From assembly GCA_013289015.1 (NCBI GenBank), contig JABDAV010000003.1, positions 1 through 64,000 on the forward strand: a DNA stretch of 64,000 nt, in the 5' to 3' direction. The notes below the pieces were generated by a model. That model was not told the origin of the DNA. It was given only the letters and a program-made list of their open reading frames with translations, and made no database searches. Each line of letters begins with the position of its first letter. Position 1 is the stretch's first letter. Both the position numbers and the translations under genes were made by a program. Below are positions 32,279-51,965 of this stretch, in pieces. The stretch is from Bacteroidota bacterium. Its GTDB lineage: Bacteria; Bacteroidota; Bacteroidia; Chitinophagales; Chitinophagaceae.

Positions 32279-32297
32279 AAATGTTTTTTTGACAATT
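32279..32297. promoter_or_regulatory. Candidate AraR operator A (susC, overlaps -33 box)
   Basis: AAATGTTT TTT TGACAATT, an imperfect 8-3-8 dyad. Its right half TGACAATT is identical to the sites at 38788 and 44227. It overlaps the TTTG of the susC promoter. Confidence 0.6.
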
Positions 32298-32318
32298 AAA
32301 AAAACATCTCTATTTTAG
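32288..32318 (+). promoter_or_regulatory. Bacteroidota-type promoter of the susC gene
   Basis: TTTG at 32288-32291, a 19-bp spacer and TATTTTAG at 32311-32318 (consensus TAnnTTTG). A second -7-like TATTTTTG at 32324-32331 follows. The implied leader is about 160 nt. Confidence 0.6.
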
Positions 32319-32337
32319 ATTTTTATTTTTGAATAAT

Positions 32338-32356
32338 AATTGTAAAAATTACAATT
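32338..32356. promoter_or_regulatory. Candidate AraR operator B (susC leader)
   Basis: AATTGTAA AAA TTACAATT, a perfect 8-3-8 palindrome and the best-formed of the five related sites. It lies just downstream of the predicted susC transcription start. Confidence 0.7.
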
Positions 32357-32488
32357 TAAAAATTGTTGTATGAAAAATGATTGCTTTATACCAGACGGGC
32401 CCGGAACATAACTATAATCCATTTTAACACCGTCAATAATAACCATCTATTTTTAAACCAAACAGGAAACTGTTTAAAACAACCAGCT

Positions 32489-35400
32489 ATGATTTTTCGA
32501 TTGCTAAAAACAAGAACTCAATTAGTTTTCAGTACTATTATTTTACTACTGATCTCAACAGGTATTAAAGCTCAAACATCTGCTATTTCAGGAGTTGTAA
32601 GAGACTCTGCAGGAGGTGTGCTTGCCGGGGCTACAATTACTGTTAAGAACGGAACTGCCAACGCCATCAGTTCTGATATTGGATCGTTTACCATCAATGC
32701 AAAAAAAGGTGATGTTATCCAGGTTACTGCAATAGGTTACGACCCGCAGGCAATTACCGTAGGTAATCAAACCACTCTGATCTTTCAGCTACATCCAAGT
32801 TACAATTCTTTAAATGAAGTAGTGGTAATAGGTTATGGCACTGTTAGAAAAAAAGATGTTACCGGTTCTGTATCTACGGTGAACGTAAGTGAAGCTGCTA
32901 AAAATCCAACGTATGATGTTGCCAAAATGCTGCAGGGACAGGTTGCCGGCGTAAGTGTGCATGGCTCAGGTGAACCGGGAGGCTATGTTCAGATTAAAAT
33001 CAGAGGCATCAGCAACTTTGGTGATAATAGCCCGTTGTTTATAATCGATGGCGTTCCTGTTGAAGCGCCATACGATTTTTCACCCAGCGACATTGAATCT
33101 ATCTCTATTTTAAAAGATGCTTCTGCCGGCGCCATCTACGGTTCAAGAGCTGCAACAGGAGTTGTGATTATTACAACTAAAAAAGGTAAAACCGGTGCAC
33201 CGAAATTTACCTGGAACAGTTACATAGGTACACAGAATGTACCTAAAAAAATTCCTGTATTAGACAGGACCGGCTACCAGAAAGTGGTAAATGCTGCGGA
33301 TGAAAATGCCGGCCTTTCACTGGCGCCTGCAAACGATCCAACCAGTTCTTATTATGTATCGGACGTAAACACAGACTGGCAGAACGAAGCGCTGAAAACC
33401 GGTGTTATCCAGGAACACACTTTAGGTGTTTCGGGTGGTACAGAATCTATCAATTACAATGTTTCGCTTGACTATTTCAACCAGACAGGTTACCAGGTTG
33501 GCCCGCAGGCATATAACCGTTATTCGTTTAACGGAGGTTTGCAAGGCAGAAAAGGAAGGTTCAGCTACGGTTTCAAACTCTATTATATGAGTTCTAAAAA
33601 AGGTAATTATTCAGGCACAAGCAATCATGCTGTGTTTGGCGGCACCGTTACCTCAATGCTTACAGCAATACCTACTATCGGTGTTTATGATTCTACCAAG
33701 AAAGGTGGTTATGCAGGAACAGATCAAACTATTCACCGTGCTATATCTGCCAATGTAGTAGGTCTTAATGAGATCGTAGATGACTGGAGTTCACGCAACA
33801 GGATATTATTAAGCGGGTGGGGACAACTGGAGATTGTAAAAAATCTTAATTATAAAATTGCCGCAAGCTACGACCGGACTGACTGGGAAAATTACCATTA
33901 TGAACCCAGCTTTGATATGGGATATTATTACATAAACACACAATACCTGTATATGGACGCTACCGGGCAGCCATATACGCAGTTGACTGAGCAGACCTTA
34001 ACCTATAACTTTAAAAGATCAAACCATCAACTTGATTTACTAGCCGGTTATTCTTTTCAAAAAGATTATAACCAATGGATATCAGGAAAATCTGTTGCCG
34101 ATGGCGATCTTGATTTTCATAGCTTCAGTGCTGCAGATGCAAGTTCAAATACAATTACACAATGGAAAGGCACTGCAACAACAACAGGATTATTCGGAAG
34201 ATTAAATTATAATTTTGCAGACAAATATTTATTTACGGCAAACTTCCGCAGGGATGGTTCTTCCAAATTTGCACCTTCTAACAGGTATGGTAATTTCGCC
34301 GGGTTTGCCGGAGCCTGGAACATTTATAACGAGTCATTTTTGCATCTGCCTAAAGCATTCAGCAGCCTTAAATTACGCGGCGGATGGGGAGAACTTGGCA
34401 GTCAGAAGAATCTTGGTTATTATGATTGGCAATCTTACATAAACAGTTCAGCCAACTATAACTTTTCAAATGTACTGGCTTCCGGTGGAACTACAGTTTC
34501 AGTTACTGATCCTAATTTAAAATGGGAAGTTGCACAAACTTCAGACGTTGGGCTTGACATGGGTTTTTTAAATAACAGTATTACTGCAACAGTTGAATAC
34601 TACGATAAAGTTGCAAAAGACATTATTACCTCTTTGCCTTTACCTTACTCTGTAGGTTCAATCCCCGCATCAATTATTACCAATGCAGCTTCTGTAAAAA
34701 ACACGGGTATAGAACTTACGGTTGGTTATAAAAAAACAGCAGGTAAATTCACTTACAGTGCCGATGCTAATTTCTCTACTTTAAATAATAAAGTATTAAA
34801 ATTAGGCGGAACAAATAACCCGATTTATGGTTCAGGCAGTAAAACTGAAGTGGGTCGTTCTGTAGGTGAGTTATATGGTTATCAAACAGAAGGATTATTT
34901 CAAAGCCAGGAAGAGATCGACAACCATGCATTCCAGTCAGCTACAACAGCACCCGGGGATGTGATCTTTAAAGCACAGGATGCCGGTAAAAATAATGATC
35001 ATACTTATATCATTACGGATGCTAACGACAGGGTATATCTTGGCAATACAATACCTACGTATTACTACGGCTTTAATTTTTCAGCAAATTATTCCAATTT
35101 TGATTTTTCAATATTCATACAGGGCAGCGGCGGAAACAAAGTTTTTAATGGAGTTTACCAGGCTTTAATGACAGGGCAATATGGTAACCAGCATACAGAT
35201 GAACTAAATTTCTGGACGCCGACAAATACAAATACTAATGTTCCCCGTCCTGTTATTGGCGATCCGAATGGCAACAATCGTTTCTCTGATCTGTTTGTTG
35301 AAGATGGATCTTATGCAAGGCTTCAAAATGCTCAGATAGGTTATTCACTGCCTTCATCAACTGGCCTTATTAGGAAGCAGGTTATCTCAAGACTGCGTAT

Positions 35401-35551
35401 TTATATCTCAGGAGAAAACTTAATAACCGTTAGTAAGTACAAAGGCTATGATCCTGATTTCATAAGCGATGGTCTATTCAGCCGCGGTTTTGATTATGGT
35501 TCATTCCCTAATCCGCGTACTTTAATGATGGGAATACAAGTGGGCTTTTAA
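32489..35551 (+). CDS. SusC/RagA-family TonB-dependent outer-membrane transporter
   Basis: 1020-residue TonB-dependent channel that imports oligosaccharides with its SusD partner, here probably arabino-oligosaccharides. From ATG 32489: signal peptide (RTQLVFSTIILLLISTGIKAQ), carboxypeptidase-regulatory-like domain (about 33-110, ISGVVRDSAGGVLAGATITV), plug with the SusC signatures GTVRKKDVTGSVSTV, IIDGVPVEAPYDFSP, DIESISILKDASAGAIYGSRAATGV and VVIITTKKGK, and a long barrel ending LMMGIQVGF. An upstream TTG at 32381 is not favoured. A hairpin AAACAG-GAAA-CTGTTT lies 14 bp before the start. First gene of the arabinose locus; 25 bp to susD. Confidence 0.94.
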   Translation: MIFRLLKTRTQLVFSTIILLLISTGIKAQTSAISGVVRDSAGGVLAGATITVKNGTANAISSDIGSFTINAKKGDVIQVTAIGYDPQAITVGNQTTLIFQLHPSYNSLNEVVVIGYGTVRKKDVTGSVSTVNVSEAAKNPTYDVAKMLQGQVAGVSVHGSGEPGGYVQIKIRGISNFGDNSPLFIIDGVPVEAPYDFSPSDIESISILKDASAGAIYGSRAATGVVIITTKKGKTGAPKFTWNSYIGTQNVPKKIPVLDRTGYQKVVNAADENAGLSLAPANDPTSSYYVSDVNTDWQNEALKTGVIQEHTLGVSGGTESINYNVSLDYFNQTGYQVGPQAYNRYSFNGGLQGRKGRFSYGFKLYYMSSKKGNYSGTSNHAVFGGTVTSMLTAIPTIGVYDSTKKGGYAGTDQTIHRAISANVVGLNEIVDDWSSRNRILLSGWGQLEIVKNLNYKIAASYDRTDWENYHYEPSFDMGYYYINTQYLYMDATGQPYTQLTEQTLTYNFKRSNHQLDLLAGYSFQKDYNQWISGKSVADGDLDFHSFSAADASSNTITQWKGTATTTGLFGRLNYNFADKYLFTANFRRDGSSKFAPSNRYGNFAGFAGAWNIYNESFLHLPKAFSSLKLRGGWGELGSQKNLGYYDWQSYINSSANYNFSNVLASGGTTVSVTDPNLKWEVAQTSDVGLDMGFLNNSITATVEYYDKVAKDIITSLPLPYSVGSIPASIITNAASVKNTGIELTVGYKKTAGKFTYSADANFSTLNNKVLKLGGTNNPIYGSGSKTEVGRSVGELYGYQTEGLFQSQEEIDNHAFQSATTAPGDVIFKAQDAGKNNDHTYIITDANDRVYLGNTIPTYYYGFNFSANYSNFDFSIFIQGSGGNKVFNGVYQALMTGQYGNQHTDELNFWTPTNTNTNVPRPVIGDPNGNNRFSDLFVEDGSYARLQNAQIGYSLPSSTGLIRKQVISRLRIYISGENLITVSKYKGYDPDFISDGLFSRGFDYGSFPNPRTLMMGIQVGF

Positions 35552-35576
35552 TTTTTTCACTATCAAATTATTCAAC

Positions 35577-37142
35577 ATGAAATTGTATAATTCAAAATAT
35601 AATATTGCAATTTGTCTTCTGATAATATTCAGCAGTTGCGAAAAACAATTAAACCAGGTAAATCCGAATGCACAAACATCTTCATCATACTGGAAAACGC
35701 AAAGCGATGCACTGGGCGGTGTAAATGCATGTTATCAAATGTTGGTGGAAGATGGCGGTTATATGCGCTTCTCTCCCATTCTTTTAAATATCCAGGGCGA
35801 TGATGTAAGAAGTAACAGTCCCTGGACAGCTATTTCAAACGTGGGTAAATTTCAGTTGGGCACAGCTGACCCTTCCGGTTATGGATGGACGTTTGATGAA
35901 TTTTACCAGGGCATATCAAGGTGCAACCAGGTTTTGCAAAATGTTCCTTCCATCGATATGGACGGAGCATTAAAGAACAGGATATTAGGACAGGCATATT
36001 TTTTAAGAGGCCTCTATTATTTTCATTTGGTAAATATGTTTGGAAGCGTGCCCTTGCCTACTAACATAGCCGAAACAGTACCACAATCATCTGTTGCGGA
36101 TGGATGGGAAAGAGTAAAAGAAGATTTTAAATCTGCCATTGATCTTTTACCCTTACAATATTCTTCTACGGGCGGTGTTGATGCGAATGATCTGGGTCGG
36201 GCTACCAAAGGCGCAGCTATGGCTTTTCTTGGTAAAGCCTATCTCTTCAATAAAAACTTCGACAGCGCTGCAATGCAATTTAAAAACGTTATTGATTTAG
36301 GTATTTACAGTCTTATGTCAGATTATAAAGACAACTTCACTGAAGACAATGAAAACAACGCAGAGTCAATTTTTGAGATACAGTTTTCCTTATCTGCAGG
36401 CGGCACTGATCTGCAATGGCAGGGAGTACCCGGACCAACATGGGGTTTTTATTCAGCCAGAGCCATCACATTTGGCCCGCCAAATTTTGGGTGGACGGAT
36501 GTGCAGCCAACACAAACCGCGTTAAATGAATATCGCCAGGAAAAAACAGTTGATGGAAAAATAGATCCGCGTTGCCTTGTATCTATTCTGTATAATGATA
36601 CGTCTGATACACACCAGGGCACAACGCCAATGTATCAAACAACTTTTCAGGATGCTTATGCTTCCAGCGCCGCTTACATGGCAGATGTTTATTGCAAAAA
36701 ATATGAAAATGTTTATGGCAATAAAGTAAATGAATACGACTGGAAATCGGGTATAAATGAAAGATTAATGCGTTATGCAGATGTGCTTTTAATGTATGCT
36801 GAATGCGAAAACGAATCAGGCGACAGAGCCACATGTGCTCATTATATTCAAATGGTAAGAACAAGAGCACATTTACCTAACAGGGAAGCTGAGTTTGCGA
36901 CTTATTCACAACAGCAGATGCGCGATCAGATTGGTCATGAAAGGTTACTTGAATTTTGTTTGGAAGGCCATCGTTTTGATGATATACGCAGGTGGGGCTG
37001 GCTTTCTGATGCAACAAAACTTGCCTGGTTAAAATCAAGAGATCCTGAGTTTAACAGCTATTTGCCCGGACGGGAATTGTTGCCAATTCCACAAACCGAA
37101 ATTGACAATAATCCTGATGTAAAACAAAATCCTACATATTGA
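35577..37142 (+). CDS. SusD/RagB-family glycan-binding surface lipoprotein
   Basis: 521 residues; lipobox IFSSC places the lipidated Cys at 21. The SusD core includes SSYWKTQSDALGGVNACYQML, the TPR-like FLRGLYYFHLVNMFGSVPLPT and the C-terminal signature RDQIGHERLLEFCLEGHRFDDIRRWG and LPIPQTEIDNNPDVKQNPTY. It caps the SusC channel and binds the glycan on the cell surface. It follows susC by 25 bp and ends in a terminator, after which the GH43 gene starts within 80 bp. Confidence 0.94.
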   Translation: MKLYNSKYNIAICLLIIFSSCEKQLNQVNPNAQTSSSYWKTQSDALGGVNACYQMLVEDGGYMRFSPILLNIQGDDVRSNSPWTAISNVGKFQLGTADPSGYGWTFDEFYQGISRCNQVLQNVPSIDMDGALKNRILGQAYFLRGLYYFHLVNMFGSVPLPTNIAETVPQSSVADGWERVKEDFKSAIDLLPLQYSSTGGVDANDLGRATKGAAMAFLGKAYLFNKNFDSAAMQFKNVIDLGIYSLMSDYKDNFTEDNENNAESIFEIQFSLSAGGTDLQWQGVPGPTWGFYSARAITFGPPNFGWTDVQPTQTALNEYRQEKTVDGKIDPRCLVSILYNDTSDTHQGTTPMYQTTFQDAYASSAAYMADVYCKKYENVYGNKVNEYDWKSGINERLMRYADVLLMYAECENESGDRATCAHYIQMVRTRAHLPNREAEFATYSQQQMRDQIGHERLLEFCLEGHRFDDIRRWGWLSDATKLAWLKSRDPEFNSYLPGRELLPIPQTEIDNNPDVKQNPTY

Positions 37143-37151
37143 TGAGTTAAA

Positions 37152-37184
37152 AAGGAATCCCTCAAACAAAGGGTTTCCTTTTTT
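37152..37184 (+). terminator. Terminator after susD
   Basis: An 11-bp stem with one mismatch (AAGGAATCCCT / AGGGTTTCCTT), loop CAAACAA, followed by six T residues. It may be partial, allowing lower expression of the downstream glycosidase genes. Confidence 0.8.
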
Positions 37185-37218
37185 AAATTAATTGCAAACA
37201 GAACATAAATAATACGTA

Positions 37219-38730
37219 ATGCGTGATTCAATAAAGAATGGTTACAAAGTGAAACTTGTTTTCTGCATGTTTCTGCTTGCATACGTTTTTTCAGCCTGCA
37301 AAAAAACATCAGATACTTCTTCGGGAGGAAATACTGGCGGTGGAGATACTACTGTTGTAACTCCCCCTCCTTCTTTCGATATCAACAGCATACATGATAC
37401 TTATGAAGATGTTGCATCGTTCGATGATTATTTGAAATGGGGTTCTTATAATGTGCATGATCCTTCTATAAAAAAATTCGGCGATTACTACTATTGTTAC
37501 AGTACTGATGTAGCTTATGGCACTGAGGTAAGACCAGGCATACAAATAAGAAAATCAAAAGATCTCGTTGAATGGAATTTTTATGGATGGGTATTTAGTT
37601 CACTGCCCGCGATGGGTTCAGCATTTATTACACAAGAAGGCGGAACACCTAATAATGCATTATGGGCGCCATATGTAATGAAGGTGGGAAACGAATACAG
37701 GCTGTATTATTCATTGTCATCGGCAACACCGCGCTTAAGTGTTATAGGCCTTGCTACTGCATCTGCACCGGAAGGCCCGTGGACGGAAAAGGGTTTGGTA
37801 GTAACATCTACGGCTGACAATTACACGCAAACTAATGCTATTGATCCAACAGTTATTGTTACACCTTCCGGTGACCAATACATGTATTATGGTTCTGCAT
37901 GGGATGGCATTTATATTTTAAAACTTGATGCTTCAACTGGTCTGGTGGCTACTGCCGGCGACAAAGGCAAGCGTATTGCAAACCGTGGTTTTACTAACGG
38001 TGTATATAACGGTAATATAGAAGGTAGTGAAGTGATCTATAATTCAACACTAAAAAAATATTACCTGTTTATTGCTTACGACTGGCTGCAGACAAAATAC
38101 AATGTACGGGTTTGCAGGGCAGATAATCCTGAAGGGCCTTATTATGATTACAATAGCGTGGATGCAAATACAAATATTGATCATGGCCCGATGATTATTG
38201 CGCCATATCAATTTACGGGTCATGGCGGCTGGCAAGGTACAGCCCATTGTACCGTGTTTACAGGCGATAATGATCAATATTATATTGCACACCAGGGAAG
38301 ACCGGCAGTGAATAGTTATTACATGGATTTGCATGTACGCAAACTTTTCTGGACTGATGATGGCTGGCCTGTAGCCTCACCGGAAAGATACGCGTGGGAA
38401 GATAATTCAACGGTATCAAAAGATAGTATTTCCGGCACCTGGGAGCGGATAGCTTTAAATTATACTGTTATGCCCGGTTATGGAAATGAACAGGTTTCGC
38501 CAGATATGCAGGTAGCACAAAATATTACCATCGATGCAACCGGTACATTAAACGGCGATGCCTCAAGTACGTGGTCTTACGGTGCGCCATGGCTCACACT
38601 TAAGTGGAGTAACGGCACAACTGAAAAAGTTTTTGTGCAGAATGGAAGAGATTGGGAAAACGAAAAATCAACCATAATATTTACCGGGCTTGATGATAAA
38701 GGAACTGCTGTTTGGGGAAAGAAAACGTAA
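37219..38730 (+). CDS. GH43 arabinanase-like lipoprotein
   Basis: 503 residues; lipobox VFSAC (Cys27), then a Gly/Thr/Pro linker (about 28-52). The five-bladed beta-propeller shows the GH43 triad: base Asp81 in VHDPSIKKFGDYY, pKa modulator Asp209 in NAIDPTVIV and acid Glu271 in NIEGSEVIYN. The C-terminal ~100 residues (GTWERIALNYTVMPG...) are a lipocalin-like beta domain typical of endo-1,5-alpha-L-arabinanases. Probably surface-exposed, cutting arabinan before SusCD uptake. It follows susD. Confidence 0.9.
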   Translation: MRDSIKNGYKVKLVFCMFLLAYVFSACKKTSDTSSGGNTGGGDTTVVTPPPSFDINSIHDTYEDVASFDDYLKWGSYNVHDPSIKKFGDYYYCYSTDVAYGTEVRPGIQIRKSKDLVEWNFYGWVFSSLPAMGSAFITQEGGTPNNALWAPYVMKVGNEYRLYYSLSSATPRLSVIGLATASAPEGPWTEKGLVVTSTADNYTQTNAIDPTVIVTPSGDQYMYYGSAWDGIYILKLDASTGLVATAGDKGKRIANRGFTNGVYNGNIEGSEVIYNSTLKKYYLFIAYDWLQTKYNVRVCRADNPEGPYYDYNSVDANTNIDHGPMIIAPYQFTGHGGWQGTAHCTVFTGDNDQYYIAHQGRPAVNSYYMDLHVRKLFWTDDGWPVASPERYAWEDNSTVSKDSISGTWERIALNYTVMPGYGNEQVSPDMQVAQNITIDATGTLNGDASSTWSYGAPWLTLKWSNGTTEKVFVQNGRDWENEKSTIIFTGLDDKGTAVWGKKT

Positions 38731-38787
38731 TTTTTATTTTCAAATTTTTACCACTAATAATAAACTAAATTTTGGCTGAGCCAGTTT

Positions 38788-38806
38788 AATTATTAATGTG
38801 ACAATT
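38788..38806. promoter_or_regulatory. Candidate AraR operator C (regulator gene)
   Basis: AATTATTA ATG TGACAATT. The outer flanks extend it to a 23-bp dyad TTAATT...AATTAA (38786-38808). It lies about 85 bp before the regulator start, with a -7-like TATTTTTG at 38837-38844 between; this arrangement suggests autoregulation. Confidence 0.6.
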
Positions 38807-38891
38807 AATTTTTCGTGATTGTTTATGGTTTATAGATATTTTTGAATGATATCAAATTCTAAACACAAATAACTGCCAACTATTTTAAACT

Positions 38892-39605
38892 ATGCAACTA
38901 AAGCGTTATACACATCAGAACAGAATGCTGTTGGCAGTTGACTGTATTATATTTGGATTTGATGGTACTCATTTAAAGTTATTGTTGATTAAACGAGGTT
39001 TTGAGCCCCAAAAAGGGCGCTGGAGTTTGATGGGTGGTTTTGTAACATCTGAGGAAAATATCAACCAGGCTGCAGCACGTATTTTAAAACAACTAACAGG
39101 ACTCACAGATATTTACCTTGAACAACTTGCAGGTTTCGGCGATCCTCATCGCGATCCTACTGAACGCACTGTTTCTATTGCTTATTTTGCTTTGATAGAC
39201 ATAAATAAATATGAAGAACAATTAAGCCATGAATACAGCGCAGAATGGTTTTCATTAAAAAAATTGCCATCAGTTATATTCGATCACAAAGAAATGATTG
39301 AAATGGCAAAAGAAAAGCTAAGATATAAAGCCGCATTTCATCCTGTATTGTTTGAATTGCTTCCGGAGAAGTTTACGATTCCACATTTGCAAACTTTGTA
39401 TGAAGATGTTTATAATAAGGTATTGGATAAAGGCAATTTCAGTAGAAAAATATTATCAACAGGACTGTTGGTAAAACAAAAAGACAAAGAAAAGAACGGT
39501 TCAAAAAAAGGCGCGTTTTATTATAAGCTGGATAAACGAAAATACCAGTTAAAATTCAATTCATTTCTCAACTTCATTCCGAATCCGGAAGTACAATCTA
39601 AATAA
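38892..39605 (+). CDS. araR: Nudix-type transcriptional regulator, AraR/NrtR family
   Basis: 237 residues. The N-terminal Nudix domain (about 5-140) has LLAVDCIIFGFDGTHLKLLLIKRG and GRWSLMGGFVTSEENINQAA. The Nudix box is degenerate (RILKQL where REUXEE is expected), so hydrolysis is unlikely and ligand sensing is probable. The C-terminal winged-helix (about 145-225) ends AFYYKLDKRKYQLKFN. Bacteroidota use an NrtR-family protein of this design, AraR, to repress arabinose genes with L-arabinose as ligand. The position inside the arabinose locus and five matching palindromes support that role. Confidence 0.85.
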   Translation: MQLKRYTHQNRMLLAVDCIIFGFDGTHLKLLLIKRGFEPQKGRWSLMGGFVTSEENINQAAARILKQLTGLTDIYLEQLAGFGDPHRDPTERTVSIAYFALIDINKYEEQLSHEYSAEWFSLKKLPSVIFDHKEMIEMAKEKLRYKAAFHPVLFELLPEKFTIPHLQTLYEDVYNKVLDKGNFSRKILSTGLLVKQKDKEKNGSKKGAFYYKLDKRKYQLKFNSFLNFIPNPEVQSK

Positions 39606-39646
39606 TCGGCTGATAATTTTCATCGATATTGTATCAATATAAAAAT

Positions 39647-39665
39647 AAATGTATTTTTGACAAAT
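39647..39665. promoter_or_regulatory. Candidate AraR operator D (GH51 gene)
   Basis: AAATGTAT TTT TGACAAAT, an 8-3-8 dyad with TGT/ACA cores. It overlaps a TTTG (39656-39659) that is 17 bp before TACTTTTA (39677-39684), a likely -33/-7 pair. Confidence 0.55.
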
Positions 39666-39743
39666 AAAAAATATAGTACTTTTAGCACGCCATCACAAAA
39701 ATATTTTTTTAGTTTTTCAAAAAAATACAAACGATAGGGTTAT

Positions 39744-39899
39744 ATGAAAATTGATCTCACGGTGTTTTGCCGCGATAAAATTTTTAAACAACTTTTTGTT
39801 TTTCGTCTAATAAGAAAACGGGAACCGGTTTCCACCGGCTCCCCTGTATACTTAACTGAACAGAAAAGATCTTTCACCACTAAAAATCTGAATTATTAA
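39744..39899 (+). CDS. Possible leader ORF before the GH51 gene
   Basis: A 51-codon frame with ATG at 39744 (MKIDLTVFCRDKIFKQLF...) ends with a TAA one base before the GH51 start codon, so ribosomes finishing it would stop next to the next ATG. It contains a hairpin at 39820-39843 (GGGAACCGG / CCGGCTCCC, one mismatch). The peptide is basic and matches no family. It may be a translated leader or chance. Confidence 0.3.
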   Translation: MKIDLTVFCRDKIFKQLFVFRLIRKREPVSTGSPVYLTEQKRSFTTKNLNY

Positions 39900-39900
39900 A

Positions 39901-41868
39901 ATGAAGCTTACACGCATAATATTTGTTGCCATATTATTATCATCATCAAGCTTTTTATATGCTCAGCCGATCATTGTAAAAGCTGATAACCCGACTGCAA
40001 CTATTCAGCCGACTATGTGGGGAATATTTTTTGAAGATATAAATTTTGCTGCTGATGGCGGCTTGTATGCAGAACTTGTTAAGAACCGTTCATTTGAATT
40101 TGCTGCGCCGATGATGGGTTGGACCCTTCAGCAACAAACACCTAATACAGGAACTGTTTTAGTTACGAACAGGCTTGGAACAGATAGCTCAAACCCCCGC
40201 TACATAAGAGTTACACGCAATACTGAAACAGGAAATTTCGGGTTGACGAATGAAGGCTTTCGCGGTATGGGCATCAAACAAAATGAACAATATAATTTTT
40301 CTGTTTTGGCTAAACCTGAAAGCGGAAATATTACACTGCATGTGCAATTGGTTGACAGCACAGGTAAAAGTTTTGGAGAATCTCAATCCATAAACATTTC
40401 AGGTAATAACTGGCAACAATATAAAACAAGTTTTACAGCAACAGGTACTGCACTTAAAGCAAAAATGAGTGTATGGTTTGAAGGAAAAGGCGTTGCCGAT
40501 CTTGATATGATCTCTTTGTTTCCTCAACACACATGGAAAGAAAGACCGAATGGTTTGCGTGCAGATCTTGTTCAGTTATTAGCTGATATGAAACCCGGTT
40601 TTATTCGCTTTCCCGGTGGTTGCATTGTTGAGGGAAGAGAACTGGCAACGCGCTATCAATGGAAAAAAACAGTTGGTCCCGTTGAAGATCGCAAGGTTAT
40701 TGTGAACCGCTGGAACACTGAGTTTGCACATCGCCCCACGCCTGACTATTTTCAAAGTTTCGGGCTCGGCTTTTATGAATATTTCCAGTTGGCTGAAGAT
40801 ATTGGCGCTTCACCATTGCCTATTCTTAACTGCGGCATGGCCTGCCAGTTTAATACAGCAGAGGTGGTTGATACAACTCAACTCGATCCATATATCCAGG
40901 ATGCATTGGATCTGATCGAATTTGCCAACGGGGATGCTTCAACAAAATGGGGACATCTGCGTGAAGTGATGGGTCATCCTGCTCCTTTCAATCTTAAACT
41001 GATGGGCGTAGGCAACGAACAATGGGGCCCGCAATACATTGAACGCTATAAAATTTTTACGAGAGCAATCAAATCAAAATATCCAAACATTCAATTAGTG
41101 AATAGTGTTGGCCCATCTCCTGATGGAGATATGTTTAATTTTTTGAATGATACCTTAAGAGCATTACATGCAGATATCCTCGATGAACATTATTATCAGT
41201 CACCTTCATGGTTTCAAAACCATGCAACCCGTTATGATAATTATGACAGGAACGGTCCCAAAATTTTTGCAGGCGAATATGCTGCACAGAGTGTTGCCAC
41301 GGTTAGTCCTTTAAATAAAAACAACTGGTTGTGCGCTTTGTCTGAAGCTGCATTCATGACCGGCCTGGAACGCAATGCTGATGTTGTAAAGATGGCTTCC
41401 TATGCACCTTTGTTTGCGCATGTTGATGGCTGGCAATGGACACCTGATCTTATCTGGTTCAACAATCTTAATTCATACGGTACACCTGATTATTATGTGC
41501 AGAAATTGTTTTCAGATAATAAAGGTTCGAATGAAGTTGCTATCCTTATGAATAATGAGGCATTGAAAGGTAAAGACAGCCTGTATGCATCAGCCTGCAC
41601 AGATGCTGCTTCAAATGAACTGGTACTTAAAATTGTGAACACATCTTCTCAGCCAGTATCAAAACAAATAAATATCGACAGTAAAAAGAAGGCTGATGCA
41701 AAAGCAACAATAACCATGTTGCAAAGCAGCAATCTTGATGCAGTGAATTCAATTGAATCACCACAAAATATTAGTCCGCAAACAAATGAAATAGATGTAA
41801 AGGGCAAACAGCTAAGCTTAACATTAAGTCCTTATTCTTTTACAATTGTTCGTGTAAAGATGTTATGA
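39901..41868 (+). CDS. GH51 alpha-L-arabinofuranosidase with internal CBM-like domain
   Basis: 655 residues with signal peptide (MKLTRIIFVAILLSSSSFLYAQ). The domain order is typical of the larger GH51 enzymes: N-terminal part GIFFEDINFAADGGLYAELV, a CBM4/9-like insert (about 75-210), then the (beta/alpha)8 barrel with acid/base Glu373 in MGVGNEQWGPQ and nucleophile Glu459 in IFAGEYAA, and a beta-sandwich end. It removes terminal arabinofuranose from arabinan or arabinoxylan in the periplasm. Four base pairs separate its stop from the next gene, so they are co-transcribed. Confidence 0.94.
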   Translation: MKLTRIIFVAILLSSSSFLYAQPIIVKADNPTATIQPTMWGIFFEDINFAADGGLYAELVKNRSFEFAAPMMGWTLQQQTPNTGTVLVTNRLGTDSSNPRYIRVTRNTETGNFGLTNEGFRGMGIKQNEQYNFSVLAKPESGNITLHVQLVDSTGKSFGESQSINISGNNWQQYKTSFTATGTALKAKMSVWFEGKGVADLDMISLFPQHTWKERPNGLRADLVQLLADMKPGFIRFPGGCIVEGRELATRYQWKKTVGPVEDRKVIVNRWNTEFAHRPTPDYFQSFGLGFYEYFQLAEDIGASPLPILNCGMACQFNTAEVVDTTQLDPYIQDALDLIEFANGDASTKWGHLREVMGHPAPFNLKLMGVGNEQWGPQYIERYKIFTRAIKSKYPNIQLVNSVGPSPDGDMFNFLNDTLRALHADILDEHYYQSPSWFQNHATRYDNYDRNGPKIFAGEYAAQSVATVSPLNKNNWLCALSEAAFMTGLERNADVVKMASYAPLFAHVDGWQWTPDLIWFNNLNSYGTPDYYVQKLFSDNKGSNEVAILMNNEALKGKDSLYASACTDAASNELVLKIVNTSSQPVSKQINIDSKKKADAKATITMLQSSNLDAVNSIESPQNISPQTNEIDVKGKQLSLTLSPYSFTIVRVKML

Positions 41869-41874
41869 TAATTG

Positions 41875-42870
41875 ATGAACAAACTTTATAAAATAGCATG
41901 TTTAATTGTTGGCCTAACGGTTTGCTTATTATCAAATGCGCAAACCGATACAGTAATTTCAGTTCATGATCCTGTTATTATAAGGCAAGACAGTGCATAC
42001 TATATTTTTTGTACAGGTTTTGGTATATCAGTTTTTTCTTCAACCGATATGAAAAACTGGAAGAAGGAAAAACCTGTATTTGCAAAAGCACCGCAATGGG
42101 CAATGCAAACAATTCCGGGTTTTGTCGGACATATATGGGCGCCCGATATAAGTTATCACAACAACGAATATTATTTGTATTACGCTGTTTCTGCTTTTGG
42201 AAAAAATGCTTCAGCCATTGGATTAGCAACTAATAAAACATTGGATCCTTCAGATAAAAATTTTAATTGGATTGATCATGGGAAAGTAATTCAATCGGTG
42301 CCGGGGCGGGATATGTGGAATGCGATCGATCCGAATTTAATTTATGTTGAAAATGAACCCTGGCTTGCATTTGGCTCATTCTGGAGTGGTATAAAACTGG
42401 TTAAACTTGATAGCAGTTTAACCAGGCCAGCCGAGCCGGAAAAATGGTTTACTATTGCAAGCCGTTCGAGAAATTATATACTGCCCGATAGTGTTGCCGG
42501 CGACGCAGCAATTGAAGCCCCATTCATTTATAAGAAAGATAATTATTACTATCTCTTTGTTTCATTTGATTATTGTTGCCGAGGTGAAAAGAGTACTTAT
42601 AAAATGATGGTGGGAAGAAGCGAAAAAGTGTACGGCCCCTATGTTGATAAAGATGGTGTACCGATGAATCTTGGAGGTGGTTCATTACTGTTGGAAGGAG
42701 ATAAAGACTGGAATGGTGTTGGCCATAATGCAGTGGCAAATTTTAACGGCGTTGATTATCTTATATTTCATGCTTATGATGCGCATGACAATGGCAAGCC
42801 GAAATTGCGCATTGAGAAATTGATTTGGTTTAATGGGTGGCCTTTTGTTTTCAAACAAAGAAATAATTGA
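41875..42870 (+). CDS. GH43 endo-1,5-alpha-L-arabinanase-like enzyme
   Basis: 331 residues from ATG 41875 (signal peptide ...LTVCLLSNAQ); a TTG at 41872 immediately before it is not needed. Triad: Asp32 in VHDPVIIRQDS, Asp152 in NAIDPNLIY and Glu214 in AAIEAPFIYKK. Conserved HIWAPDISYHNNEYYLYYAVSAFG and VGHNAVANFNG mark the arabinanase group of GH43. It is a compact single-domain enzyme, in contrast to the larger lipoprotein GH43 at 37.2 kb, so the pair may split surface and periplasmic digestion. Confidence 0.92.
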   Translation: MNKLYKIACLIVGLTVCLLSNAQTDTVISVHDPVIIRQDSAYYIFCTGFGISVFSSTDMKNWKKEKPVFAKAPQWAMQTIPGFVGHIWAPDISYHNNEYYLYYAVSAFGKNASAIGLATNKTLDPSDKNFNWIDHGKVIQSVPGRDMWNAIDPNLIYVENEPWLAFGSFWSGIKLVKLDSSLTRPAEPEKWFTIASRSRNYILPDSVAGDAAIEAPFIYKKDNYYYLFVSFDYCCRGEKSTYKMMVGRSEKVYGPYVDKDGVPMNLGGGSLLLEGDKDWNGVGHNAVANFNGVDYLIFHAYDAHDNGKPKLRIEKLIWFNGWPFVFKQRNN

Positions 42871-43006
42871 GATTTTATACAGAAGATTGAAACATATTGT
42901 TGAATAGTACCGCAAAAGAAAATCAAACTTTGCCAGCAATGTTTATAAAACAAAAACATTTGTCCAATAGCTTATAATTTTATTCATCATCATTAAAAAA
43001 ATAAAA

Positions 43007-44125
43007 ATGACACGATTGTTTTATTGCTTAAGTTTTATAGCATCCATTTTATTTATTTCCTGTAATTCAACAGAAACTGCCGCAACAACCGGTGTAACAA
43101 AAAAAGATTGGGATGAGGCAGATAACCAGCAGGTTTACCTTTATACGCTCACCAACAAAGAAGGTGATGTTGTAACCATAAGCAGTTATGGCGGCACTAT
43201 TACATCGTGGGTAATGCCTGATAAAAATGGCAACAAAAGCAGTATTGTTATGGGCTTCGACAGTATAACCCAATACCTGGAACATCCGCCTTATTTTGGT
43301 GCACTGGTTGGCCGTTACGGCAACCGCATTGCTAAAGCGCAATTTAAATTGGGCGACAGCGTTTATCATCTCGCTGCAAACAATGGCCCTAACAGTTTAC
43401 ATGGCGGTTTAAAAGGCTTTGATAAAATTGTGTGGGATGTATCTGTTCCTGATTCAACAACGCCATCAATCACTTTAAAATATGTAAGTAAAGATGGCGA
43501 AGAAGGTTATCCTGGTAATCTTAATGTAACAGTAGTGTATACATTGAGCGATGATGATGGATTGAAGATTGATTATACTGCAACAACAGATAAACCAACG
43601 CCGCTTAATTTAACCAACCACAGCTATTTTAATCTTACAGGCAGTCCGAAAAATTCTATTCTTGATCATACATTAATGATTGATGCAGATGCATACACGC
43701 CTGTTGATTCAACATTGATTCCAACTGGCGAATTAAAGGCCGTGAAAGGAACTCCGTTCGATTTTACTACTGCAAAAAAGATTGGACGTGATATTGATTC
43801 AGTGCCGGGTGGCTACGATCACAATTTTGTGTTGAATAAAAAAGATACATCATTGCAAAAAGTGGCAACGCTTAGTGATTCAGTTAGCGGAAGGCAATTG
43901 GATGTTTATACAACACAACCAGGTCTTCAATTTTATACAGGTAATTTCTTAGATGGAAAATTTGTGAACAGGGATGGCAGTCCATTGAATCTTCATACAG
44001 CGCTTTGCATGGAAACACAGCATTTTCCTGATTCACCTAATCAACCTGCATTTCCATCAACCATTTTAAAACCGGGTGAAGTGTATCACAACGTAACAGA
44101 ATATAAGTTGAGCTTGATAAAATAA
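43007..44125 (+). CDS. galM: Aldose 1-epimerase (galactose mutarotase family) lipoprotein
   Basis: Interconverts alpha and beta anomers of free aldoses; here probably L-arabinose released by the glycosidases. 372 residues with lipobox LFISC (Cys19). Family motifs: GYGNRIAKAQF-like GRYGNRIAKAQF, LHGGLKGFDKIVWDV, NLTNHSYFNLTGS with the catalytic His, GYDHNFVLN, and CMETQHFPDSPNQPAFPST. Being lipidated it works in the periplasm. It lies between the arabinanase and araB, 136 bp after the former. Confidence 0.94.
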   Translation: MTRLFYCLSFIASILFISCNSTETAATTGVTKKDWDEADNQQVYLYTLTNKEGDVVTISSYGGTITSWVMPDKNGNKSSIVMGFDSITQYLEHPPYFGALVGRYGNRIAKAQFKLGDSVYHLAANNGPNSLHGGLKGFDKIVWDVSVPDSTTPSITLKYVSKDGEEGYPGNLNVTVVYTLSDDDGLKIDYTATTDKPTPLNLTNHSYFNLTGSPKNSILDHTLMIDADAYTPVDSTLIPTGELKAVKGTPFDFTTAKKIGRDIDSVPGGYDHNFVLNKKDTSLQKVATLSDSVSGRQLDVYTTQPGLQFYTGNFLDGKFVNRDGSPLNLHTALCMETQHFPDSPNQPAFPSTILKPGEVYHNVTEYKLSLIK

Positions 44126-44226
44126 TAATAGTGAGTAGGCAGTAGTGAATGTTAGTTTGCAATTTAAAACTTTCAGTTGTAATCTCACTACTCATTACAG
44201 GTAACAAATAATGAATAATTAATTTT

Positions 44227-44245
44227 AATTGTAAATTTGACAATT
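44227..44245. promoter_or_regulatory. Candidate AraR operator E (araB)
   Basis: AATTGTAA ATT TGACAATT, 8-3-8 dyad extended by TT/AA flanks to 23 bp (44225-44247). It covers the TTTG (44236-44239) of a promoter whose -7 is TATCTTG at 44260-44266, 20 bp downstream. Confidence 0.68.
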
Positions 44246-44288
44246 AAAAAAAATAATTCTATCTTGCTCAGCAAAGGCAGCCTGCAAT

Positions 44289-45962
44289 ATGAATACAGCT
44301 TATGTTATAGGAGTTGATTACGGAACAGATTCTGTTCGTTCAATAATTGTAAATACAGCGAACGGACAGGAAGTCGCATCTGATGTTTTTTATTATCCCC
44401 GCTGGAAAAACCAGTTGTATTGTGATGTATCCGTCAATCAGTTTCGCCAGCATCCGCTTGATTATATTGAAGGCCTGGAACAAACCATTAAAAGATGTTT
44501 GCTGCAGGCAGGAGCAAATGTTTCGGCTAACATAAAAGCTATTTCCATTGATACAACAGGCTCCTCTCCTGTTATCGTTAACAAACAAGGAACACCACTT
44601 GCAATGACACCTGGGTTCGAAACGGATCCCAATGCCATGTTCATTTTATGGAAAGATCATACAGGCGTAAAAGAAGCCACTGAAATAAATGAACATGCTG
44701 CAAAGTTTGATGTGAACTATTTGCAATACGTTGGCGGTATTTATTCTTCAGAATGGTTTTGGGCAAAGCTTTTACACGTATTGCGTGCAGATGAAAAAGT
44801 AAAAGATGCTGCTTACTCATTTGTTGAGCATTGCGACTGGATCCCGTTTCTTTTAACGGGCGGCAATGATGTAGCAACAATGAAAAGAGGCATTTGCTCT
44901 GCTGGTCACAAAGCATTGTTTGCAAAAGAATTTGGCGGGCTTCCTCCAAATGAATTTTTTAAATCACTTGATCCGTTGCTTGATGGTTTTACATCAAGGC
45001 TTTTCAATAAAGCTTACACATCATCAGAATGCACAGGTAATCTCTCAAGTGAATGGGCAGAACGTTTGGGCTTATCAACAGATGTTGTTATTGGTGTTGG
45101 TGCATTTGATGCGCACATGGGCGCTGTTGGTGGGCAGATCGAACCTTATTATTTAAGCAAAGTAATGGGCACGTCAACCTGCGATATTTTAGTTGTACCT
45201 GAAGATGATGTAAAAGATATTTTAGTTAAAGGTATTTGCGGGCAGGTGCCGGGTTCTGTTATTCCGGGAATGATGGGTATGGAAGCAGGCCAGTCTGCAT
45301 TTGGAGATGCCTATGCCTGGTTCAGAAATTTATTGATGTGGCCTTTCAAACAAATGCTTAATCAATCAGACATAATTGATGCAGATAAAATAAAAGCTTT
45401 GATTGATGAAAGTGAAAACAAGTTGATCGCAGAACTATCAAAATATGCTGAGCAGCTTGGAATAAATGAAGATGATGAATTGGCTGTTGATTGGTTCAAT
45501 GGCAGAAGAACACCTGATGCCAATCAAATGCTGGAAGGTGGTTTTTATGGCCTGAGCCTTGGTAGCAATGCACCTCGAATGTTTAAAGCAGTTGTTGAAT
45601 CAACATGCTTTGGTGCAAAAGCGATTGTTGAAAGATTTATCGAAGAAAAAATTCCTGTAAAAGGTTTAATAGGTATGGGTGGTGTTGCAAAAAAATCTCC
45701 TTTCATTATGCAGATGATGGCTGATATTATGCAGATGCCTATCCGCATACATAAAAGCGAGCAAACCTGTGCAGCCGGCGCAGCAATGTTTGCTGCAACA
45801 GCAGCAGGATTGTATAATAAAGTAGAAGATGCCATGCAGGCAATGGGCCGCGGTTTTGAAACAACATTTTATCCTGATGCATCAAAAGCTGAAGTGTATC
45901 AGAAACGCTATGAACGTTATAAAAAATTTGGCCACGCTATCGAAGAACTTACCATGAATTAG
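44289..45962 (+). CDS. araB: Ribulokinase
   Basis: Phosphorylates L-ribulose to L-ribulose 5-phosphate, the second step of arabinose catabolism. 557 residues of the FGGY kinase fold: N-terminal YVIGVDYGTDSVRSIIVN, catalytic-region GAFDAHMGAVGGQIEP, MGTSTCDILV, GMEAGQSAFGDAYAWF, and the C-terminal IGMGGVAKKSPFIMQMMADIM with CAAGAAMFAATAAG. Length fits bacterial AraB (about 560). ATG at 44289, with its own promoter and operator. Confidence 0.95.
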   Translation: MNTAYVIGVDYGTDSVRSIIVNTANGQEVASDVFYYPRWKNQLYCDVSVNQFRQHPLDYIEGLEQTIKRCLLQAGANVSANIKAISIDTTGSSPVIVNKQGTPLAMTPGFETDPNAMFILWKDHTGVKEATEINEHAAKFDVNYLQYVGGIYSSEWFWAKLLHVLRADEKVKDAAYSFVEHCDWIPFLLTGGNDVATMKRGICSAGHKALFAKEFGGLPPNEFFKSLDPLLDGFTSRLFNKAYTSSECTGNLSSEWAERLGLSTDVVIGVGAFDAHMGAVGGQIEPYYLSKVMGTSTCDILVVPEDDVKDILVKGICGQVPGSVIPGMMGMEAGQSAFGDAYAWFRNLLMWPFKQMLNQSDIIDADKIKALIDESENKLIAELSKYAEQLGINEDDELAVDWFNGRRTPDANQMLEGGFYGLSLGSNAPRMFKAVVESTCFGAKAIVERFIEEKIPVKGLIGMGGVAKKSPFIMQMMADIMQMPIRIHKSEQTCAAGAAMFAATAAGLYNKVEDAMQAMGRGFETTFYPDASKAEVYQKRYERYKKFGHAIEELTMN

Positions 45963-45989
45963 TATTAACCACCAACATCAGCATATAAT

Positions 45990-47531
45990 ATGAAAAAAAT
46001 CACTGCAACTATTTTTATTGCATGTATATTTTACGCGTCGTTTGCGCAACAAACGGTAAATATGCAAATAAATTCCAAAGCAAATAATCAAAAAATAAGC
46101 AAGTATATCTACGGACACTTTGCGGAAGACCTTGGCCGTTGCATATATGGCGGCTTTTGGGTTGATTCAAATTTGAATGTTCCTAAAAATGACCGCATTC
46201 GTTTAGATGTTGTTGATGCATTAAAGAAGATTCAGATACCGGATTTGCGTTGGCCTGGTGGTTGTTTTGCAGATCAGTATCACTGGAGTGATGGCATTGG
46301 TGAAAGAAGCAAAAGGCCTGTACGCGTGAATACAACATGGGGCATGGTAGAAGATGATAACAGTTTTGGCACTGATGAATTTTTAAAGCTGTGCGACCTT
46401 ATCGGATGTGAACCCTACATTGCAGGAAATGTTGGAACAGGCACACCAAAAGAAATGGAAGACTGGCTTGAGTATTTAAATTATAATGGCAAAAGTACAT
46501 TGGCTGATATGCGCAGAAAAAATGGTCATGATGCGCCTTATAATGTTTCATTGTGGGGTGTGGGAAATGAAAGTTGGGGTTGTGGTGGCAGCATGACACC
46601 TGAGTTTTATTCCAACCAGTTTAAGCGTTATGCAGAGTTTTGTAAAAACTATCCCGGAACCTCGCTCAAAAAGATTGCAAGCGGTTCAAACGGCGATGAT
46701 TATAACTGGACTGATGTATGTATGAAAAATATTCCCTTGTGGATGATGTGGGGAATATCCATGCATTATTATACCATTACCAATACCTGGCAACATAAAG
46801 GCTCTGCTACAGGTTTTACTGAAGAAGAATATTTTAAGGCATTGAAAAGTTGCTTGCATATTGAAGATCTAATTAATAAACATTCTGCAATAATGGATAA
46901 ATATGATCCGCAGAAAAAAGTGGCATTGGCTGTTGATGAATGGGGAATATGGACAGATGCTGAGCCCGGAACCAACCCTGCTTTTTTATACCAGCAGAAT
47001 AGTTTACGCGATGCATTGATAGCAGCATCAACATTAAACATTTTCAATAACCATTGCGATCGTGTGCGCATGGCAAATCTTGCCCAGGCAGTAAACGTAT
47101 TACAGTCACTTATTTTAACAGATAAAGAAAAGATGGTGCTTACGCCTACTTACTATGTTTTTGATCTGTATAAATATCATCAGAACGCAATATTATTGCC
47201 TGCTAATTTTTATAGCCCGGATTATAATTTTGGAAGTGACAGCATTCCTGCAATCAATGCATCGGCATCAAGAGACAGCAACGGTATTATTCATATAACA
47301 TTGGTAAATCTTGATCCTAAAAACAAAATTTCTGTAAATACAAGTTTGAATGGTTCATCATGGAAGCAAACTGAAGGGCAAATATTGACTTCAAAAAATT
47401 TTACAGACATCAACACATTTGATGATCCGAATAAAGTAAAGCTTGCAGCATTCACTGATTTTAAAAAGAATGGTGATGAATTAACTGTAAATCTTCCGCC
47501 AATGTCTGTAACGCTTATCACACTTAAATAA
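45990..47531 (+). CDS. GH51 alpha-L-arabinofuranosidase (compact type)
   Basis: 513 residues with signal peptide (MKKITATIFIACIFYASFAQ). No CBM insert, unlike the other GH51 here. Motifs: YIYGHFAEDLGRCIYGGFWVD, DLRWPGGCFADQYHW, acid/base Glu194 in LWGVGNESWGCGG and nucleophile Glu317 in LAVDEWGIWTD; a C-terminal beta-sandwich follows. Related enzymes act on small arabino-oligosaccharides. It begins 27 bp after araB and ends 3 bp before araD, so it is embedded in the catabolic operon. Confidence 0.94.
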   Translation: MKKITATIFIACIFYASFAQQTVNMQINSKANNQKISKYIYGHFAEDLGRCIYGGFWVDSNLNVPKNDRIRLDVVDALKKIQIPDLRWPGGCFADQYHWSDGIGERSKRPVRVNTTWGMVEDDNSFGTDEFLKLCDLIGCEPYIAGNVGTGTPKEMEDWLEYLNYNGKSTLADMRRKNGHDAPYNVSLWGVGNESWGCGGSMTPEFYSNQFKRYAEFCKNYPGTSLKKIASGSNGDDYNWTDVCMKNIPLWMMWGISMHYYTITNTWQHKGSATGFTEEEYFKALKSCLHIEDLINKHSAIMDKYDPQKKVALAVDEWGIWTDAEPGTNPAFLYQQNSLRDALIAASTLNIFNNHCDRVRMANLAQAVNVLQSLILTDKEKMVLTPTYYVFDLYKYHQNAILLPANFYSPDYNFGSDSIPAINASASRDSNGIIHITLVNLDPKNKISVNTSLNGSSWKQTEGQILTSKNFTDINTFDDPNKVKLAAFTDFKKNGDELTVNLPPMSVTLITLK

Positions 47532-47534
47532 TTC

Positions 47535-48236
47535 ATGAGCAAATACGACTATATAAAAGAAGAAGCATTCAAAGCAAACATGCAGTTGCCTGAATTGAAA
47601 TTAGTGCTGTTTACTTTTGGAAATGTAAGTGCAGCAGACAGGAATCTTGGTGTGTTTGCCATTAAACCAAGCGGTGTACCTTATGAAGAATTATCTGCAG
47701 ATAAAATGGTGATCGTTGACTTTGATGGCAAAACTGTTGAAGGCGATCTTCGTCCTTCTTCTGATACGCTTACGCATGCAGTTTTATACAAGCATTGGGA
47801 AAAGATAAATGGCATTGTGCATACACATTCAACTTATGCAACAGCATGGGCGCAAAGCCTGCGTGATATCCCTATTTACGGAACAACACATGCAGATCAT
47901 ACAACTGCGGATATCCCATGTGCTGCACCGATGAACGATGAAATGATCAAAGGCAACTATGAATACGAAACAGGTTTCCAGATCATTAATGCATTAAAAG
48001 AAAAAAAATTAAGTTACGAAGATGTTGAGATGATGTTAGTCGGAAATCATGCGCCTTTTACATGGGGGAAAACGGCAGCGAAGGCAGTGTACAACAGCGC
48101 TGTGCTGGAAGAGATCGCAAAGATGGCTTATATAACGGAATCGATCAAAGCAGATGCGTTGCGGTTAAAAGATGCATTGATAAAAAAACATTTTGAAAGA
48201 AAGCATGGGCCTGATAGTTATTATGGGCAAGTGTGA
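47535..48236 (+). CDS. araD: L-ribulose-5-phosphate 4-epimerase
   Basis: Class II aldolase-fold zinc enzyme making D-xylulose 5-phosphate, the last dedicated step of the pathway. 233 residues. The zinc ligands His96 and His98 are in GIVHTHSTYA and His172 in VGNHAPFTWG; Asp77 in RPSSDTLTH and the IYGTTHADH loop are also in place. These positions are within one residue of E. coli AraD (D76, H95, H97, H171). It starts 3 bp after the GH51 stop. Confidence 0.96.
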   Translation: MSKYDYIKEEAFKANMQLPELKLVLFTFGNVSAADRNLGVFAIKPSGVPYEELSADKMVIVDFDGKTVEGDLRPSSDTLTHAVLYKHWEKINGIVHTHSTYATAWAQSLRDIPIYGTTHADHTTADIPCAAPMNDEMIKGNYEYETGFQIINALKEKKLSYEDVEMMLVGNHAPFTWGKTAAKAVYNSAVLEEIAKMAYITESIKADALRLKDALIKKHFERKHGPDSYYGQV

Positions 48237-48238
48237 TT

Positions 48239-48303
48239 GAACCACAAAGGCACTAAGACACAAAATCTTTGTGATGCTTAGTGTATTCGTGTCTTAGCGG
48301 TTG
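48239..48303. repeat. Imperfect inverted repeat between araD and the GH127 gene
   Basis: ACCACAAAGGCACTAAGACAC is mirrored by GTGTCTTAGCGGTTG at the other end with related TTTGTG and CTTAGTG blocks between. Elements of this wording are common between genes in Bacteroidota and look like a dispersed palindrome family. Confidence 0.6.
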
Positions 48304-48363
48304 AAAACTTCAATACATTAGATGCTTTGCTGCTGCATGTTTCACCTGTGAAATAGAATTTTT

Positions 48364-50397: not shown

Positions 50398-50403
50398 AAT
50401 TAT

Positions 50404-51894
50404 ATGATCGACTTAAAGAGTCAAGCGGTTTGGTTCATTACCGGCAGCCAGCATTTGTATGGCGAAGAAACATTGAAACAGGTTGCTGCACATTCGCAGG
50501 AAATTGCTGCATATTTGAATGCTGCAAAAGAAATTCCTGTACAAATAATTTTCAAACCAACTGTAAAAACACCGGAAGAAATTTTAGCTGCATGTAAAGC
50601 AGCAAATGATTCACAAGATTGCATAGGCATTATTACATGGATGCATACCTTCTCTCCTGCCAAGATGTGGATCAACGGTTTGAAAATTTTGCAAAAACCT
50701 TTATTGCATTTGCATACACAATTCAATCGCGATATTCCATGGAATGATATTGACATGGATTTTATGAACCTGAATCAAAGCGCACATGGCGACCGTGAGT
50801 TTGGTTTTATGGTGAGCCGCTTGCGCATTGAAAGAAAAGTTGTTGTTGGTTACTGGCAAGATGATTTAACACTAAAAAGTATTGCAGTATGGTGCCGTGC
50901 TGCAGCCGGTTGGAATGATTGGCAGGGCGCAAAATTTGTTCGTTTTGGAGATAACATGCGCTATGTTGCTGTAACAGATGGTGATAAAGTAGAAGCAGAA
51001 TATAAGTTTGGATTTTCGGTGAATACGCATGGCATTGGTGATCTGGTAAAAGTTATTAATGCGATAAGCGATGCTGATGTAGATACATTAATTAAAGAAT
51101 ATGAAGACAGTTATACATTAAGTTCCGCATTACAAAAAAAAGGAACGCAACATCAGTCATTAAAAGATGCAGCAAGAATTGAATTAGGTTTAAAAACATT
51201 TTTGGAAGATGGAAATTTCAAAGGCTTTACAGATACATTTGAAGACCTGCATGGCATGGTGCAATTGCCCGGTATTGCTGCACAAAGAATGATGGAAGCA
51301 GGTTATGGTTTTGCCGGCGAAGGCGATTGGAAAACAGTTGCATTGGTACGCGCAATGAAAGTAATGGCGCAGGGATTAAAAGGCGGCAACAGTTTTATGG
51401 AAGATTACACGTATCATTTTGAACCCAATAATGAAATGGTGTTAGGTGCGCATATGTTAGAGATATGTTCATCTATTGCAAACAAAAAACCTTCGTGTGA
51501 AATTCATCCTTTAGGTATTGGTGGCAAAGCCGATCCTGTGCGATTGGTGTTTGATGTTGATGGTGGCGCTGCATTAAATGTATCTGTCATTGATATGGGC
51601 AATCGTTTCAGAATGTTGGTGAATGAAGTGGAAGCTGTTAAACCCAAACATAAATTGCCAAAACTGCCTGTAGCACGGGTTTTATGGAAGCCAATGCCTG
51701 ATATGAAAACTGGTTGCGCCGCATGGATATATGCAGGCGGTGCACATCATACATGTTATAGTCAAAACCTGACCAGCGAACATTTGAGTGACTTTTCATC
51801 AATGGCAAATATTGAATTTGTTTTAATTGATAAGAATACGAATCTCTACAATTTAAAAAATGAATTAAGATGGAGCGAAGTTTATTACAGGTAA
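50404..51894 (+). CDS. araA: L-arabinose isomerase
   Basis: Manganese enzyme converting L-arabinose to L-ribulose. 496 residues. The metal and catalytic residues are at Glu306 (GFAGEGDW), Glu333 ([12 protein letters not shown]), His350 ([11 protein letters not shown]) and His449 (GGAHHTCYS), numbered as in E. coli AraA (306, 333, 350, 450). N-terminal [18 protein letters not shown] is typical. It starts 6 bp after the GH127 stop and lies next to the sugar symporter. Confidence 0.97.
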
Positions 51895-51965
51895 ACATGT
51901 ATTTGCATTAGATTGCGCACGCTTAAAATTTATAATCAAACCATCAAATAACGATTGAACCTATC

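Follow-up and report, generated by a model that had tools for sequence, protein, structure and literature searches.

The 64,000-nucleotide stretch of DNA analysed here, referred to as the window, contains a cluster of arabinose genes with palindromes which the original prediction had read as operators of an AraR-type regulon, and the question arises which of these palindromes are operators and which protein would occupy them. The cluster begins with susC, susD and a GH43 gene resembling arabinan endo-arabinanases (32489..38730), followed by araR (38892..39605) and by a GH51 arabinofuranosidase gene together with an AbnA-like GH43 gene (39901..42870), all on the + strand, then by galM (43007-44125) and, again on the + strand, by araB, GH51, araD, GH127, araA and a sodium/sugar symporter gene (44289..53678). 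A genomic linkage between araR and arabinose genes is found in this cluster and in most of 60 family loci. Between araD and GH127 (48243-48306) lies an intergenic inverted repeat of the CCACAAAGGCACTAAGACAC type, which looks like a small dispersed palindromic element.

The 237-residue product of araR combines a Nudix-like sensor with an NrtR/AraR winged-helix repressor module, as indicated by Pfam domains PF00293, PF21906 and PF19368 (including AraR_C and NrtR_WHD) and by its closest solved structure, BtAraR (5bs6, E 9e-66). Judged by sequence, ligand pocket and gene context it is the orthologue of Bacteroides thetaiotaomicron AraR (BT0354), which supports the AraR-type reading; the characterisation of such an AraR dates from 2015. 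Among named genomes that of Parafilimonas terrae is the closest, its AraR being 92 per cent identical, which points to a Parafilimonas-like member of Chitinophagaceae as the source of the window. The residues contacting L-arabinose in BtAraR (PMC4666351) are kept, namely the hydrogen-bonding R34, R86 and H131 as well as Y5, F36, G47, G48, F49 and F129, with the single pocket change of V92 to Thr, as in most of the family. The catalytic glutamates of the Nudix motif are gone, RILKQLTGL standing in place of REUXEEXGU. On the DNA-binding side, BtAraR uses six contacts, K179, R180, N181, K184, K204 and R205, described as absolutely conserved in Bacteroidetes, of which Arg180 is inserted into the DNA base stack (PMC4666351). 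In the window protein K179, N181 and K204 are kept and the others read R180G, K184R and R205K. Since K184R and R205K predominate in the family and 16 of 156 sampled AraRs carry R180G, these changes read as variation inside the family rather than an exclusion from it; because three contacts are altered, the exact binding mode of BtAraR is nevertheless not simply transferable. The relative SZAS-21 (G109) carries two AraR copies, both with Gly180. Both complete sister genomes have a second, more distant araB copy (L176 in G008; L177/L207 in G109) with 62–65 per cent identity to the window AraB.

Dyads had been described at 32279, 32338, 38788, 39647 and 44227; all five are present, four of them being well supported as putative operators, and the one at 38788 scoring at background. 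The sites at 32279, 32338 and 44227 match AAnTGT-N7-ACAnTT exactly, those at 39647 (..ACAAAT) and 38788 (AATTAT.., the G of TGT being lost) with a single mismatch. The 19-bp palindrome originally postulated holds in its core, but is better written as TAATTGT-N7-ACAATTA with 21 bp, as for BtAraR. The susC promoter contains two putative operators in tandem, annotated like the others without strand: operator 1 at 32279..32297 (AAATGTTTTTTTGACAATT; 14.3 bits, E 0.006) and, 59 bp downstream of it, operator 2 at 32338..32356 (AATTGTAAAAATTACAATT; 16.5 bits, E 0.001), which likely lies just downstream of the transcription start. The putative operator preceding the first GH51 gene is found at 39647..39665 (AAATGTATTTTTGACAAAT; 13.0 bits) and that preceding the araB-led genes at 44227..44245 (AATTGTAAATTTGACAATT; 18.1 bits, the best match in the genome). 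In agreement with the original prediction, pattern and model scans revealed no credible site before galM, GH127, araA or the symporter gene.

The four sites recur in relatives. Sister genomes retain both susC operators (58 bp apart instead of 59 bp) and the GH51 operator, and their araB operator is likewise kept, together with its TATCTT -7 box. Operator 1 of susC is kept together with its -7 element in locus L046, G109:C101 carries AATTGTATAAAATACAATT as the counterpart of operator 2 at a distance of 58 bp from operator 1, the 39647 operator is kept in L046 and at position 2696 of L196, and two sister genomes (L174, L175) have the 44227 operator in front of araB. The element at 38788..38806 upstream of araR (strand likewise unassigned; AATTATTAATGTGACAATT) resembles a half-site; it has no counterpart in SZAS-21, the syntenic relative (locus L046), and L044 retains its right half only. 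Owing to its low score (7.7 bits, E ~0.9) and the lack of conservation in SZAS-21, the proposed site upstream of the Nudix regulator gene is unsupported, and this element is probably not a full operator.

A count of all 4-mer dyads without any supplied motif, for which the window was combined with 58 loci of related genomes to a total of 59, gave TTGT-N7-ACAA (25 regions upstream of ara genes versus 3.4 expected) and GTGT-N7-ACAC (14 versus 1.0) as the two top dyads. The latter is the operator used for BtAraR in EMSA (PMC4666351), and the N7 spacing is shared by the published BtAraR operators, e.g. AAGTGTAAAAAAGACACTT. The window sites match the 21-bp G-TGT-N7-ACA-C operator in spacing and TGT/ACA core, their outer G being replaced by T or A. 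Site density amounts to 13–19 per 10 kb upstream of arabinose genes versus 1.0–1.8 upstream of neighbouring genes and, in a second set of named genomes, to 15.4 versus 2.3, which corresponds to a palindrome enrichment of about 7–19-fold in related genomes. The operator reading is thus backed by the core spacing of the published AraR operator, the enrichment at ara genes and the conservation in sister genomes. In P. terrae (G008:C32), operator-like sites were noted at positions 2729 and 12988 of L197 and 4839 of L198, within an arabinoxylan locus comprising GH127, GH51, GH8, GH95, GH67, esterase and SusC-like genes; this suggests that the predicted AraR regulon may extend to arabinoxylan in this sister species.

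Could the palindromes simply be chance matches in A/T-rich intergenic DNA? The pattern count alone is not significant, as the loose form with one mismatch allowed is not rare (13 matches in the window versus 7.9 expected), the tighter form has 67 matches in the genome, and a perfect copy (AATTGTATATCTGACAATT) occurs inside an imelysin-family (Peptidase_M75) coding gene at 59725-59743, where it is probably due to chance. However, when the TGT-N7-ACA core is required and no more than one of the four outer A/T positions may deviate, intergenic DNA of the window yields four sites versus 0.26 expected, all four within the arabinose cluster, a number reached in 0 of 2000 Markov-1 simulations. A model of 21 positions was trained solely on other genomes, with 19 sites taken in both orientations from the regions preceding their arabinose genes. 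In the window it assigns ranks one to three to 44227, 32338 and 32279 and rank five to 39647, rank four going to the imelysin decoy at 59725, and it places the four putative operators among its seven best matches in the 3.6-Mb genome. The binomial probability of four out of seven falling in a 12-kb span is 4e-9; if the A/T-rich nature of intergenic DNA is allowed for by a factor of ten, it is 4e-5. Sister species also retain these operators at the corresponding promoters, and sites are strongly enriched upstream of ara genes across about 160 AraR loci. Taken together, this makes chance the least credible explanation for the four sites; for the 38788 element chance does fit. On the grounds of the independent model and the genome ranks the four sites stand and the site before araR does not. 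The expectation that a matrix scan of the genome would hit only arabinose genes was partly borne out, four of the seven best matches falling in the arabinose cluster but three elsewhere, so that in a genome of 62% A+T the motif alone is not specific. A second polysaccharide locus, which includes GH3, carries the third best genome match (AATTGTAAAAACTACAATT; L032 position 5784, G000:C9:51783) where susD meets a GH99-like gene; this may be a further AraR target. A perfect copy (AATTGTAAAGCTTACAATT; L031 position 5908, G000:C4:55907) was observed with a nucleotidyltransferase gene on one side and an SMP-30 lactonase/FAA hydrolase pair on the other; the idea that this pair belongs to the regulon was abandoned, its P. 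terrae orthologue having no site.

The sites might also be occupied by another regulator of the locus, such as a Nudix paralogue of the XylR kind, a LacI/AraC-type protein or a two-component system, with AraR acting elsewhere. Half-sites of the TGT..ACA type can be common to operators of unrelated dimeric regulators, and several AraR-controlled Bacteroides loci are additionally under HTCS regulators (PMC4666351). Nevertheless, the proven BtAraR operator has the same N7 spacing and TGT/ACA core, the araR gene sits between the operators, and AraR is the sole Nudix regulator of its kind found in the 66% complete genome. Moreover, 41 of 45 family genomes devoid of a close AraR orthologue are also devoid of araB (E at most 1e-100), and in the remaining four, which have araB, no such site was found just upstream of it, a weak control because araB lies inside an operon in two of them. 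We therefore judge another regulator to be improbable, if the least improbable of the alternatives. A third explanation, that the TTTG-containing sites are core promoter elements only, built from a -33 box in A/T-rich context, could account for the TTTGACAA common to three sites, which overlaps the -33 box and is followed 17–20 nt on by -7-like boxes. It leaves unexplained that conservation extends to the left half, a TGT placed 7 nt ahead of ACA, that 32338 and many sites of relatives lie outside the -33 position and that the dyad is rare at other promoters of the same loci; we consider it highly unlikely, hardly more plausible than chance.

AraR operators thus remain the preferred reading, and the promoter geometry fits that of a repressor. 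As originally predicted, a -33 TTTG is embedded in the sites at 32279 (TTTG 32288-32291), 39647 (39656-39659) and 44227 (44236-44239), with -7 elements TATTTTAG (32311-32318), TACTTTTA (39677-39684) and TATCTTGC (44260-44267) located 19, 17 and 20 nt downstream, respectively. Among TTTG-containing sites of all Gly180 AraRs, the -7 score is at least 5 of 6 in 6 of 9 versus 12 per cent of control TTTG (p 2e-4), and in 4 of 6 when the window sites are omitted (p 0.002). An operator lying over the -33 TTTG with a -7-like element behind it is consistent with a repressor that shuts out RNA polymerase. At susC, operator 2 follows shortly after the -7 box. Arg180 relatives often have their araB operator 10–40 nt before the start codon instead, likewise a position suited to a repressor.

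Based on orthology, the conserved arabinose pocket, the sites themselves, their promoter overlap, conservation and enrichment, we consider it very probable that the AraR-type repressor encoded at 38892-39605 uses 32279, 32338, 39647 and 44227 as operators, with binding, repression and release by L-arabinose assumed in analogy to BtAraR, which L-arabinose releases from its 21-bp site (PMC4666351). In the proposed scenario an AraR dimer would occupy TAATTGT-N7-ACAATTA when L-arabinose is absent and hide the -33 TTTG box at three promoters, while at susC a second dimer would sit just downstream of the start. Binding of L-arabinose in the degenerate Nudix pocket would then shift the winged helices and free the DNA, thereby turning on the susCD-GH43 unit behind operators 1 and 2, the GH51-GH43 unit behind the 39647 operator and the araB-GH51-araD-GH127-araA-symporter unit behind the 44227 operator. 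AraR would here read TTGT instead of GTGT half-sites and, since residue 180 is Gly, would do so without an Arg180 intercalation of the BtAraR type.

How far the loss of Arg180 and the altered half-site belong together was analysed across the sampled AraRs. An AraR tree built without the recognition helix requires at least four Arg180 to Gly changes, forced by well-supported branches. The G of GTGT is present in 0 of 50 half-sites belonging to Gly180 AraRs, in 32 of 80 belonging to Arg180 family members and in 28 of 56 outside the family. Counted by genome, 12 of 12 with Gly180 versus 29 of 76 with Arg180 lack this G (Fisher 4e-5, a value inflated by relatedness). There are no more than four independent contrasts; about two of these show a difference, in each case in the direction expected, and with so few a sign test is not significant and could not become so. 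The sharpest contrast is found in the genus of the window, with araB operators of AATTGT..ACAATT in three Gly180 genomes versus AAGTGT..ACACCT in the Arg180 relative L219. A strict rule equating Gly180 with TTGT had to be rejected, as 20 of 36 Arg180 AraRs with sites in a second genome set also lack the G; the coupling is therefore suggestive but not significant. Loss of the G may even precede loss of the arginine, because for two other Gly180 clades the relatives that retain Arg180 already have TTGT half-sites. Only tentatively, and with more doubt than confidence, we propose that AraR of this lineage switched to an ATTGT half-site and non-intercalating binding, Arg180 having been replaced by Gly in at least four separate substitutions, each only where the operators lack the G of GTGT.

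The novelty of these findings is modest and lies in the TTGT half-site and the lost intercalating Arg180, the regulator and the kind of regulon being already known. A regulon known from gut Bacteroides and Prevotella is extended to Parafilimonas and related Chitinophagaceae, for which an operator model can now be used. In addition, the repeated loss of an "absolutely conserved" residue alongside operators devoid of the neighbouring G offers a natural experiment on whether recognition depends on the unusual intercalating arginine of BtAraR.

L-arabinose-responsive control of ara genes is also exerted by the GntR/LacI-type AraR of Bacillus subtilis and by Escherichia coli AraC, whose proteins and operators are unrelated to those of the window AraR. 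The ADP-ribose-responsive SoNrtR of Shewanella oneidensis (PDB 3GZ5/3GZ6) shares the domain architecture, but controls NAD genes, uses ADP-ribose as effector and is a much weaker match (E 4e-27). The closest known system is that of BtAraR (BT0354; NrtR family; PDB 5BS6, 5DD4, 5DDG, 5DEQ; PMC4666351), which has in common with the window system the Nudix-like sensor joined to a winged helix, the conserved L-arabinose pocket, the 21-bp semipalindrome with TGT-N7-ACA core and, as predicted here, tandem operators at one promoter and the control of ara catabolic genes, arabinanases, arabinofuranosidases and SusCD. The two systems differ in the half-site (TTGT in the window versus GTGT), in the replacement of the intercalating Arg180, of Lys184 and of Arg205 by Gly, Arg and Lys, and in the tandem arrangement, the susC operators being 59 bp apart from centre to centre, while the BtAraR sites at the ara operon are separated by 3 or 42 bp; furthermore, GH51 and GH127 are here built into an araB-led operon, and araR itself sits among polysaccharide genes.
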